Shown piece by piece: positions 6,690-45,637 of a stretch of 49,668 bases of DNA (the first letter of the stretch is position 1; the number at the start of each line of letters is the position of its first letter). The stretch is from Azotobacter chroococcum. GTDB lineage: Bacteria > Pseudomonadota > Gammaproteobacteria > Pseudomonadales > Pseudomonadaceae. The stretch spans positions 1-49,668 of the forward strand of contig NZ_SMMU01000026.1 of the NCBI RefSeq assembly GCF_004339665.1, in the 5' to 3' direction. A program made the position numbers and the translations under genes. The notes below the pieces were generated by a model, which saw nothing but the letters and a program-made list of their open reading frames with translations, was not told the DNA's origin and did not search any database.

Positions 6690-6840
6690 GTTTTGCACGA
6701 AAAGTACTAGCGTAGACATCGCAGCGCGCAAGCCAGCGAGACCATCGCAGCAAAACCTCTTGCCAGCCTGTCGTAGCGAGTGCCAATCCTGCGGCTCTCC
6801 TTCAGCCAGCCGAATATCCGCTCGATGATGCTGCGTGCCG
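6689..6840 (-). mobile_element. IS5-type remnant: transposase C-terminus and one end
   Basis: On the minus strand 6707-6842 reads as the last 40 or so residues of an IS5-family transposase (RSIIERIFGWLKESRRIGTR, then RLARGFAAMVSLACALRCLR and a stop at 6707). Beyond it the element end reads GGTTTTGCACG starting right after the TA of the DUF2790 stop codon. The upstream part of the transposase is missing: after about 6850 the sequence changes to a MITE fragment. This is a dead fragment of a different IS5 member from the one at the window start. Confidence 0.8.
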
Positions 6841-6857
6841 GTACTTCGGGGGTCGAA

Positions 6858-7017
6858 GCATGGCGGCATTTGCCGCGCAACCCTCAGGGACGGGGCCCGT
6901 TTGGCGCAGCACGGCGTCTCTCGTCGCTCATTTGGAATGACCAGACTTCTCTCCTCGTTCCTTGTTCTGCGCCAAACGGCGCCTCTGTCGCGGCCTACGC
7001 CAAAACGTCAACAGGCC
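6858..7017 (-). repeat. Truncated MITE copy 1 (inverted relative to copy 2)
   Basis: The reverse complement of this stretch matches the left 160 bp of the full copy at 45373-45637, including the TIR that here ends ACGTCAACAGGCC at 7017, the central stem with GCGCCAAACGG, and the tract GGTCATTCCAAATGA (here with a few changes). The other end is missing, apparently lost at the junction with the IS5 remnant at about 6850. Confidence 0.75.
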
Positions 7018-7182
7018 ATAACTTCGCCGTTCGTAGAATTTCGTTGCTCATGCGCCACTTTGTGCTTTCGTTGATGTGTGCAGATAAAAATATCGTGGTA
7101 GCAAATGCATGTCAGTTGAAGAGCGAGGGGTAGTTTAGCAAGGGCTCCACACAACTATCGAGACGGCACTGAGGAGACAATC

Positions 7183-7926
7183 ATGGAAAACATCAACCAA
7201 TGCCTGAAAGGATTCCAGGAGCAGCTGGAGCACCTTCAGAACAATGCGGCGCTGAAAGCGCTCCAGGAGCAGATGGAGAACTTTCAGACGAATGGAGCAC
7301 TGAGGGCGATCCAGCAGCAGATGGAGCATCTACAGAAAAATTCGATGCTGAAAACGCTCCAGGAGCAGCTAGAGCACCTTCAGAACAATCCGGTGCTGAA
7401 GGGATTTCAGGAGCAGATGGAAAAATTCCAGAACAATCCGGCGCTGAAGGAGTTTCAGGAGCAGATGGAGCAATTTCAGAACGACCCGGAGCTGAAAGCG
7501 CTCCAGGAGCAGATGGAGCAACTTCGAAACAATCCGGTGCTGAAGGGATATCAGGAGCAGATGGAGTACTTTCAGAACAATAGGGAGCTGAAAACGATCC
7601 AGGAAGAAATGGAGAAACTTCAAAACAATCCAGTAATGAAAGCGTTCCAGGAGGAGATGGAACACTTGCAGAACAATCCGGCGCTGAAAGCGATCCAGGA
7701 GGAAATAGAGCAATTTCAGAATACTGCGGCACTGAAAGCGATCCAGGAGGAGATGGAGCACTTTCAGAACAACCCGGCGCTGAAAACGTTCCAGGACCAG
7801 ATAGAGCACCTTCAGAACAATCCGGCGCTGAAAACGATTCAGGAGGAGATGGAGCACTTTCAGAACCATCCGGCACTGAAAGCGATTCAGGAACAGATGG
7901 AGCAAATTCAGCAAAGACCGGCCTGA
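7183..7926 (+). CDS. Protein built of fifteen 16-residue helical repeats, unknown function
   Basis: 247 residues, composed of a 7-residue leader (MENINQC) and exactly fifteen uninterrupted 16-residue units, 7 + 240. The consensus unit is LKAIQEQMEHLQNNPA. Invariant or near-invariant positions are L1, K2, Q5, E6, M8, E9, Q12, N13; positions 4 and 11 alternate F/L/I/Y, and ten units have Pro at 15. Hydrophobics at 1, 4, 8 and 11 give one amphipathic helix per unit, broken by NNP, which suggests an alpha-solenoid or helical array. Estimated net charge is about -18. There is no signal peptide or membrane segment, and one Cys. GAGGAGA stands seven bases before the ATG. GC content (about half) is far below the neighbours. 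The units faintly recall the NP-containing helices of STI1-type domains, but I do not recognise a family. Confidence 0.8.
   Translation: MENINQCLKGFQEQLEHLQNNAALKALQEQMENFQTNGALRAIQQQMEHLQKNSMLKTLQEQLEHLQNNPVLKGFQEQMEKFQNNPALKEFQEQMEQFQNDPELKALQEQMEQLRNNPVLKGYQEQMEYFQNNRELKTIQEEMEKLQNNPVMKAFQEEMEHLQNNPALKAIQEEIEQFQNTAALKAIQEEMEHFQNNPALKTFQDQIEHLQNNPALKTIQEEMEHFQNHPALKAIQEQMEQIQQRPA
7204..7923 (+). repeat. Fifteen tandem 48-bp repeats inside the repeat-protein gene
   Basis: The 48-bp unit starts at each CTGAAA-type codon pair and continues as an in-frame variant of CCAGGAGCAGATGGAG and CAGAACAATCCGGCG. There are no spacers and no indels in 720 bp, while synonymous and non-synonymous substitutions occur between units. 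This indicates tandem expansion under selection for frame and unit length. Because of the repeat, other frames stay open too; those are artefacts. Confidence 0.9.
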
Positions 7927-7967
7927 ACCGTAGTACGGAGCGACAGCCCACCGGTTGAACAACCTGT

Positions 7968-8007
7968 GGCATTTATCCACGGAGTTATCGCTCCGTGGAT
8001 AAATGCC
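7968..8007 (+). terminator. Perfect 17-bp stem-loop after the repeat-protein gene
   Basis: GGCATTTATCCACGGAG (7968-7984) is perfectly complementary to 7991-8007, with the loop TTATCG. It starts 42 bases after the stop codon. There is no T run, so it may be a factor-dependent terminator, a 3'-end protecting stem or a protein-binding palindrome. The remaining bases to 8246 hold no supported gene. Confidence 0.55.
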
Positions 8008-8246
8008 AGCCCTCGCCCCCTTCCGGGCCCACTTGCACTGCACACTTTCGTAGTTACGAGGCTAAAAGCGATTCTTTTCAAACAGACGCTGGAGCATCGC
8101 CCGAAACTCGGCGCAGCCTGAAAAGGGCGCCTCCAATCAGGTGAAATACATCCCTTGCCGATTCCGGACAGGCTACCCGGCTCAGGCCCTCCCTGGCCCG
8201 GAACCCAGTAGCCGGCGGTCACATCGCACGAAAATGCGCCGCGGAA

Positions 8247-44623: not shown

Positions 44624-45373
44624 ATGGTCAGCGCCACTTTCCGCTTCTACGAGGAGCTCAACGATTTCCTGCCGTCCGAGCGGCGGCGGCAGGCGTTCAC
44701 CTGCGGCTGTGCGCGGGCGGCGACGGTCAAGCACATGATCGAGGCGCTCGGCGTGCCACACACCGAGGTGGAGCTGGTGCTGGTCAACGGCGAGTCGGTG
44801 GACTTCACCCGGCAGCTGCGCGACGGCGACCGGGTGGCGGTCTACCCCCGCTTCGAGGCGCTGGACATCACCCCGCTGCTCAAGGTGCGCCCCCATCCGC
44901 TGCGGGAGCTGCGCTTCATCGCCGACGCCCACCTCGGCGGGCTGGCCAACCTGCTGCGCATGTGCGGCTTCGACACCCTCTACGACAACCATTACGAGGA
45001 CAGCCAGATCGCCACCCTCGCCGCCGAGCAGCGGCGCATCGTGCTGAGCCGCGACCGCGAACTGCTCAAGCGGCGCATCGTCGACCACGGCTGCTACGTG
45101 CACGCCCTGAAGCCGGCCCTGCAGCTGCGCGAGCTGTTCGAGCGGCTGGACCTCGCGCGCAGCGCACGGCCGTTCAGCCTGTGCCTGCACTGCAACCTGC
45201 TCCTGCACGAGATCGCCGCGGAACAGGCCAGGCCGCGTTTGCCGCCGCGGATCGCCGCCCTCTACTCGCGCTTTTTCGCCTGCGATGCCTGCCAGCGTCT
45301 TTACTGGGAGGGTTCACACTGGCGCAGCATGCGCGTGCTGCTGGCCCCCCTGCTGGACGCCCCGCCGGCTTAG
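44624..45373 (+). CDS. Mut7-C RNase-domain protein with N-terminal ubiquitin-like domain
   Basis: 249 residues. N-terminal ubiquitin/ThiS-like domain (about 1-80; RATVKHMIEALGVPHTEVELVLVNGESVDF) and C-terminal Mut7-C PIN-like RNase (about 95-240) with FIADAHLGGLANLLRMCGFDTLYDN, VLSRDRELLKRR and a Cys cluster CLHCN / CDACQRLYWEGSHW. The paired Asp residues fit a metal-dependent ribonuclease. Substrate unknown. The stop codon TAG is made from the TA target of the MITE at 45373, so the original C-terminus may have been different. No strong ribosome binding site. Confidence 0.85.
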   Translation: MVSATFRFYEELNDFLPSERRRQAFTCGCARAATVKHMIEALGVPHTEVELVLVNGESVDFTRQLRDGDRVAVYPRFEALDITPLLKVRPHPLRELRFIADAHLGGLANLLRMCGFDTLYDNHYEDSQIATLAAEQRRIVLSRDRELLKRRIVDHGCYVHALKPALQLRELFERLDLARSARPFSLCLHCNLLLHEIAAEQARPRLPPRIAALYSRFFACDACQRLYWEGSHWRSMRVLLAPLLDAPPA

Positions 45374-45637
45374 GGTCTGTTGGCGTTTTGGCGTAGGCTG
45401 CGACGGCGGCCCGTTTGGCGCAGAACAAGGAACGAGGAGAGAAGTTTGGTCATTCCAAATGAACGACGAGTGACGCCGTGCTGCGCCAAACGGGCCCCGT
45501 CCCTTCGGGTTGCGCGTCAAATGCCGCCATGCGGCGTTGCGGGTCTTGGCAAGGGAGTGACCATTGCCGGCGCCCCGCGCCTTGCCTGGCGGCATTTGAC
45601 GCGGCAACGCGGCTCACGCCAAAGCGTCAACAGACTC
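45373..45637. mobile_element. Full-length MITE copy 2, TA-flanked
   Basis: 265 bp. Terminal inverted repeats GGGTCTGTTGGCGTTTTGGC (start) and GCCAAAGCGTCAACAGACTC (end) match in 17 of 20 positions and are flanked by TA on both sides (45371-72, 45638-39). An internal stem CCCGTTTGGCGCAG / CTGCGCCAAACGGG encloses about 60 bp. The element is non-coding. Its GGGTCTGTTG end resembles the IS5-type end at 97-106. The remaining gap to 45726 holds only the upstream region of the patatin gene. Confidence 0.82.

Follow-up and report, generated by a model that had tools for sequence, protein, structure and literature searches.

Most helical repeat proteins, including the TPR, Sel1, PPR and HEAT proteins, are built from two-helix units of approximately 30–40 residues. 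STI1/DP helices occur in co-chaperones and ubiquilins, and LEA group 3 proteins have a period of 11. Bacterial ice nucleation proteins consist of 16-residue repeats and are reported to form beta-solenoids with Thr and Tyr arrays (PMC9418140). The papers found on helical 16-residue repeats concerned ice nucleation or related solenoids, apart from a review of staphylococcal biofilms. In the Azotobacter chroococcum genome paper, insertion sequences are reported to be numerous, and a coiled-coil protein with repeats of 54 residues is described (PMC4465626), which differs from the protein reported here. We analyzed a 49,668-nucleotide stretch of A. chroococcum DNA (the window), which is one entire contig of a 99-contig genome and carries a gene for a protein made of 16-residue units.

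The open reading frame comprises 247 codons and a TGA stop codon (Table 1), and GAGGAG lies 6 bases upstream of its ATG. As an earlier note on this DNA had stated, the protein consists of seven leader residues and 15 units of 16 residues each and nothing else, without an indel, Pro occupies unit position 15 in 10 of the 15 units, and a ribosome binding site is present; the protein has no prolines elsewhere. The repeats, which the note called exact, are exact in length and not in sequence. Tandem Repeats Finder detected a 48-bp period with 15.1 copies (score 642) and, with higher scores, periods of 96 bp (759) and 144 bp (763). Residue identity reached 0.61 at lag 16 and 0.60 at lag 32 but did not exceed 0.11 at any other lag between 5 and 39, which supports the strict 16-residue period noted earlier. 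The consensus of the 45 units from three species, taking the most frequent residues at each position, is L-K-A-I-Q-E-Q-M-E-H-L/F-Q-N-N-P-A, where position 4 has I/F/L and position 11 has L/F; hydrophobic residues alone occupy positions 1, 4, 8 and 11, apart from Tyr at position 4 in 3 of 45 units. The hydrophobic moment (0.42–0.65) points in the same direction in all 15 units, and the mean helix hydrophobicity is below 0.

The protein is very hydrophilic (GRAVY −1.10; 46 Gln, 37 Glu, 26 Asn and 4 Gly of 247 residues) and net negative (21 K+R vs 39 D+E; pI 4.87). Its highest 19-residue hydropathy is −0.22, indicating that it has no membrane segment, and no other domain was recognised in it. The low GC content reported earlier was confirmed: GC and GC3 are 0.50 and 0.70, compared with 0.66–0.68 and 0.90–0.96 in six other window genes. 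The low GC is partly due to the Gln/Glu/Asn/Lys-rich composition, but GC3 is low too, and its value points to a foreign or unusual origin.

Table 1. Features of the repeat-gene locus (window positions) and related array proteins (positions in the loci named).
Feature	Position	Strand	Basis or remark
Stretch present where G001 has approximately 84 bp; repeat gene and mobile-element sequence	6690..8233	.	Site comparison
Copy of approximately 163-bp interspersed element abutting the conserved block	6858..7022	+	Sequence comparison
5' block conserved with the gene at both sites	7020..7182	+	Sequence comparison
GAGGAG ribosome binding site	7171..7176	+	Read from sequence; AGGAGACA present in both orthologs
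Repeat-protein ORF	7183..7926	+	Intact, equal length in two other Azotobacter genomes
Leader MENINQC, seven residues	7183..7203	+	1 residue differs in A. vinelandii
Array, fifteen 48-bp units (16 residues each)	7204..7923	+	Tandem Repeats Finder, unit comparison, selection test
Right-hand end of the shared block: short conserved stretch 3' of the gene	7927..7957	+	Sequence comparison
Hairpin after the gene, own genome only	7967..8008	.	38/42 positions self-complementary
Pseudomonad and proviral array proteins	L059-L064		Membrane and SH3-type parts
Pseudomonad and proviral array proteins	L070 3960-5096; L071 5338-6372; L072 6010-7356		Membrane and SH3-type parts

Among 57 genomes searched, the repeat gene was found in three of the four Azotobacter genomes (G000, G001 and G003; G002 is without it) and was absent from the remaining 53; A. 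vinelandii CA was the only named match among the genome contigs searched. All three copies encode 247 residues with the same 15 units in register, with 90 and 89 percent identity between the window protein and the other two. The earlier note had proposed comparing unit number between strains and held that frame-breaking indels would show the gene not to be maintained; the three copies are intact and of equal length, each with 15 units, and the gene is maintained. The unit with the same number was the closest match for 15 of 15 window units in A. vinelandii and for 14 of 15 in G001. Mean DNA identity was 0.72–0.76 between units within one array and 0.83–0.98 between orthologous units, indicating that the array was built before the species split, without turnover since.

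The dN/dS ratios of the sense frame were 0.19, 0.16 and 0.08 in the three ortholog pairs; to judge from these ratios, this frame is under purifying selection. Four of the other five frames gave ratios above 1 in all three pairs, and frame −2 gave 0.36, 0.28 and 0.16 but contained 19–21 stop codons. A long antisense frame is open through the array in all three species (7193–7972 on the minus strand of the window; L008 12555–13370, minus; L009 7945–8760, plus). It was rejected as a gene and is regarded as a by-product of the repeat, since antisense frames show either dN/dS above 1 or the 19–21 stop codons. The dS of the repeat gene (0.26–0.30 over 247 codons; 0.28–0.34 with the in-frame upstream extension) falls within the range of core genes in the same pairs (0.16–0.40 for hpf-like, U32-peptidase-like, CAP-domain-like and galM-like genes, named by eye from translations), indicating that the array predates the species split and is no recent arrival. 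We conclude that the array of the repeat protein is real, old and under selection, and that its relatives were few in the samples searched.

Searches of Pfam, NCBIfam, PADLOC and PHROGs gave no convincing curated-family match for the repeat protein. The matches in these libraries, among them 23 in Pfam with E of 1 or less and those in PHROGs (E down to 1.9e-6), were set aside as repetition effects, with DUF6757 kept as a doubtful candidate, because they are short and scattered and because reversed or unit-permuted controls also collect matches: among four control sequences in Pfam, the reversed one passed a cut-off (DUF2730) and one permuted sequence reached E 6e-11 below its cut-off. DUF6757 (PF20542) scored 33.7 bits vs a cut-off of 27, with the best stretch spanning positions 24–48 of 54 only, and GlutR_dimer scored 24.4 vs a cut-off of 22.9, but no single stretch passed alone. 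No STI1, TPR, Sel1, PPR, HEAT, phasin, apolipoprotein, LEA, SH3 or ice-nucleation family appeared in Pfam at E up to 1. With controls run, these results agree with the earlier statements that no described family of this form is known to the writer of the note and that TPR and HEAT do not fit the period of 16, and they give no support to the faint resemblance to STI1-type helices mentioned there. E-values mislead for repeats, since the antisense strand of the repeat gene scores to 1e-12 and a microsatellite scores 8e-9. The latter, a Bradyrhizobium plasmid match, was rejected as a relative as it is a 10-bp microsatellite; the gene there (L042 2755–3789), largely made of it, is annotated as a hypothetical protein.

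AlphaFold2, given the three orthologs, predicted 15 helices that are broken at the turns and are mostly 14 residues long (mean pLDDT 63.1, pTM 0.22). A second model of seven units, whose input was ten seven-unit rows, four of them pseudomonad, predicted one helix per unit with packing no better (pLDDT 50.1, pTM 0.24). One helix per unit is credible as a prediction, in agreement with the helical repeat of the earlier note; as for the alpha-solenoid suggested earlier, the helices were predicted, but packing was reliable in neither model. Foldseek with the repeat-protein model found no PDB matches and seven BFVD matches, headed by tape measure proteins, none with an E-value better than 0.059. By helix geometry, a 16-residue step turns a continuous helix approximately 160 degrees; therefore, the stripes of successive units could not form one seam.

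We propose, with a probability of about 0.5, that the repeat protein is a soluble multivalent helical scaffold based on an unnamed 16-residue repeat. The predicted product would be an acidic soluble chain of 15 short amphipathic helices of approximately 14 residues; a tight turn, in most cases Asn-Asn-Pro, would close each helix, and all would display the same hydrophobic stripe (unit positions 1, 4, 8 and 11). The chain would break between helices, which would pack laterally against one another or against the equivalent stripes of partner molecules, and this packing may create a multivalent platform for the assembly of the repeat protein or of a partner. In pseudomonad relatives, an array in the same register precedes a membrane segment and an SH3-type part; the Azotobacter gene encodes the array alone. 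The strict period, the register over three species, the dN/dS ratios, the hydrophobic stripe, the predicted helices, the moment and the same-register arrays in ten pseudomonad or proviral proteins argue for the scaffold. Against it stand the unreliable packing in both models (pTM 0.22 and 0.24) and the fact that no partner gene travels with the repeat gene, which occupies two sites without a common neighbour. In view of its hydrophilicity, the protein could also be largely disordered alone.

The relatives were found with two profiles and with patterns. A profile of the three orthologs matched 7 of 398 Pseudomonadaceae genomes, i.e., three Azotobacter and four Pseudomonas (genus name inferred). 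A profile of mixed four-unit windows, whose alignment of 80 columns for 64-residue rows implies at least one shifted row, matched 6 of 398 Pseudomonas genomes (also inferred) at E 1e-4, G387 not among them; the two profiles together yielded seven Pseudomonas genomes (G122, G312, G373, G387, G479, G588 and G647). At E 1e-6, the four-unit profile matched 1 of 369 genomes of the class (own) and 2 of 398 of the phylum (own and G122), and matches were confined to Pseudomonadaceae in the samples searched. The window protein had no match in viral contigs, phage records or PDB sequences; patterns from outside the array led to three IMG/VR proviral contigs. For P38, nothing was found in plasmids or phages, and for P35 nothing in plasmids.

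The ten array proteins are open frames of 345–449 residues with an N-terminal array followed by a membrane segment, which forms a single hydropathy peak of 1.57–2.21 vs −0.22 in the window protein. SH3_3 (PF08239) was matched by all four of the ten relatives that were given to Pfam, once below the cut-off, and a C-terminal SH3 is absent from the window protein in Pfam. The C-terminal parts divide the ten into two groups; the array sequences change far more than these parts. The best repeat period was 16 or 32 in 8 of 10 (L046 judged from listed units, L071 weak at 0.17), 15 in L070, and 19 or 38 in L036, with L037 and L047 repeating better at 32 than at 16 residues. The proteins with array, membrane and SH3-type parts apparently constitute an unnamed family, and the window protein is outside this SH3-bearing group, having the array alone in common with it.

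Kinship was examined with an Azotobacter-only window model on eight of the ten arrays (L046 and L071 left out), each compared with 4000 versions in which unit positions were permuted with period and composition kept, a treatment that also destroys amphipathicity. The number of versions reaching the true score was 0 for P47 and P36, 1 for P48, 2 for P35 and P37, 6 for P70, 8 for P72 and 96 for P38. An earlier run with 2000 permutations gave 1, 4 and 59 for P35, P37 and P38, and none of 1000 full shuffles reached the true score for each of these three. The reversed P35 array scored 32.2 bits vs 35.8 for the true one, while the other seven dropped by at least 4.5 bits or went unreported. What the permutation test demonstrates is a pattern in common and not, strictly, common descent. 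An N-terminal tandem helical unit in the same register is found in the pseudomonad proteins, with reversed P35 and P38 as counter-results, and homology of the Azotobacter and pseudomonad arrays is likely from these comparisons.

The pseudomonad arrays may instead be convergent amphipathic repeats, which would leave the Azotobacter protein an orphan; this account concerns kinship, not the scaffold. The score of reversed P35, the 96 permuted P38 versions and the misleading E-values of repeats (antisense strand and 10-bp microsatellite) all speak for convergence and make it a possibility of some weight. However, at most 8 of 4000 permuted versions reached the true score in the other seven of the eight arrays, including P70 and P72, which had been found through parts outside the array, and matches stayed within Pseudomonadaceae in the samples searched; we consider convergence the less probable account.

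The surroundings of the relatives could point to a role in phage defence. Ten chosen neighbours were searched in Pfam and ten in PADLOC, nine of them common to both; 3 of 10 and 4 of 10, respectively, had no match. AbiJ_NTD4 (PDC-S32) and Fic (SoFic) genes adjoin a relative, and PDC-M21B and a DUF4435 protein with an AriAB match lie within 5 kb of relatives. Other neighbours were a UvrD-type helicase, DUF4238, a JmjC-type protein and a phage integrase; the helicase matched many GajB models, as helicases do, and a PglW match was weak (2e-7). Together with the presence of relatives on the three IMG/VR contigs and of the Azotobacter gene at two sites, the defence-type neighbours would fit relatives that are anchored defence proteins and an Azotobacter array that is a regulator, sensor or domesticated descendant. 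We regard this as doubtful, as the Azotobacter neighbours look housekeeping at both sites (names by eye), where no defence genes were recognised by eye, three L070 neighbours match no PADLOC family, the relatives themselves match none convincingly (E 0.011 or worse), and location in an island proves no defence role. A broader and equally speculative proposal is that a 16-residue helix with an Asn-Pro cap, new to the libraries searched, is common to the Azotobacter gene and a mobile, rapidly changing, membrane-anchored SH3 family of pseudomonad defence islands and proviruses; the anchored arrays would act in recognition or assembly within an unrecognised anti-phage system, of which the Azotobacter array would be the soluble domesticated form.

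Azotobacter stores polyhydroxybutyrate granules, and proline-punctuated amphipathic helices could lie flat on such a lipid or polymer surface as a phasin- or apolipoprotein-like coat. Each helix is amphipathic with one face, and proline breaks occur in 10 of the 15 units. A coat is nevertheless unlikely: the net charge and the mean helix hydrophobicity are both negative, none of the 23 Pfam matches (E up to 1) is to a phasin or apolipoprotein family, and no neighbour was recognised as a granule gene.

Azotobacter is also a cyst-forming genus, and a LEA-type desiccation or stress protectant, folding into helices on drying, would fit its cysts. The presence of the gene in three of four genomes of the genus, the hydrophilic composition rich in Gln, Glu and Asn, and the amphipathic helical repeats are compatible with such a protectant, but the period is 16 rather than the 11 of LEA group 3, there are only 4 Gly, no LEA family was matched at E up to 1, and the region's one AlgU-dependent tag probably belongs to another gene. 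We therefore judge this role improbable. A list of AlgU-dependent proteins includes Avin_18160 (PMC10651043), and Avin_18010 is dctB (PMC6979010). Tags were counted from Avin_17860 (CHAD) and from the ORF read as dctB, which placed Avin_18160 near a YebC-like ORF and the repeat gene some 7–13 tags later. As this count is rough, the list was not used as evidence, and Avin_18160 was rejected as the repeat gene, being probably another gene. The tag stems Avin_182 to Avin_185 (four of six tried) had no mention in the main texts searched.

In a comparison of the first 26 kb of the window with the 20-kb regions surrounding the gene in G001 and A. vinelandii, only window positions approximately 7000–7957 matched, i.e., the gene with approximately 160 bp upstream and 30 bp downstream. 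In the conserved 5' block, neither a sigma-70-type promoter on the plus strand nor an Rfam family was recognised, two sub-gathering-score Rfam matches being taken as chance. In G001 and A. vinelandii, the repeat gene lies between CAP-like and hpf-like genes, which in the own genome and G002 are separated by a short gap without it (L022 9322–9413 and L023 10644–10676). At the window's site, the sequences of G001 that correspond to window 6687 and 8234 lie approximately 84 bp apart; A. vinelandii carries approximately 4.5 kb of other sequence, and no second repeat gene in its genome; and in G002, of the 6 kb examined, the right-hand side alone matches. This comparison of flanks indicates that the repeat gene occupies two sites; they have no neighbour gene in common, and no terminal repeats or target duplications were recognised by eye. 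The gene may have moved long ago, or two old copies may have been lost in different lineages. The lateral acquisition proposed earlier is plausible given the low GC3 and the two sites, but divergence as in core genes places any such event before the species split.

In the window, the 163-bp interspersed element runs directly up to the conserved block, and this mobile-element sequence directly upstream of the repeat gene agrees with the IS-rich surroundings described earlier. The element carries the inverted pair GTTTGGCGCAG/CTGCGCCAAAC, and a second window copy lies at 45370–45532 on the minus strand. Nine copies align closely; a 1583-bp query holding the element gave 31, 33, 12 and 29 matches listed in the four genus genomes, most of them to the element. 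Between the neighbouring small gene and the element, approximately 6690–6850 on the minus strand resembles by eye the broken 3' end of an IS5-type transposase gene, a candidate remnant. Where the conserved block begins in A. vinelandii, a short stretch resembling two places in the far part of the window lies beside a transposase-like gene. The hairpin after the gene is strong, consisting of GGCATTTATCCACGGAG and its complement without a T tract, and was not listed as a terminator. Window 7927–8240 had no match in the other three genus genomes; this and the missing T tract place the hairpin outside the conserved part, so that the stem-loop attributed to the gene is real but not conserved with it. 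A relict or selfish repeat without cell function, to which the low GC3, the mobile-element surroundings and the absence from G002 might point, is highly improbable in view of sense-frame purifying selection and the constant number and order of units in three species.

A one-helix unit whose length is mostly 16 while its sequence varies widely between arrays points to a geometric rule that would aid the understanding and design of repeat proteins. Tandem arrays often gain or lose units, whereas the fifteen units here are unchanged over three species, which makes the question "why fifteen" testable. For phage biologists, the anchored relatives beside defence-type genes are a concrete family to examine.

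The window protein works like a tandem helical repeat protein, yet no test placed it in any of the known families tried. It shares tandem short helices with TPR, Sel1, PPR and HEAT proteins, and the 32-residue repeats of L037 and L047 would suit helix pairs; unlike these families, it has a one-helix 16-residue unit and no Pfam match to them at E up to 1. The strict 16-residue, 48-bp period is also that of ice nucleation proteins, known from Pseudomonas, but the window protein is rich in Gln, Glu and Leu, predicted to be all-helical with low to medium confidence, and without a Pfam match to them. Short helices opened by Asn-Pro recall STI1/DP, from which the strict long array and the lack of an STI1 family at E up to 1 distinguish it. 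The pseudomonad array proteins are longer, anchored, SH3-bearing and located on mobile islands, unlike the window protein; like it, they have hydrophobic residues at the four same spacings and an Asn/Ser-Pro turn, with a period of 16 in 8 of 10 (one 15, one 19).
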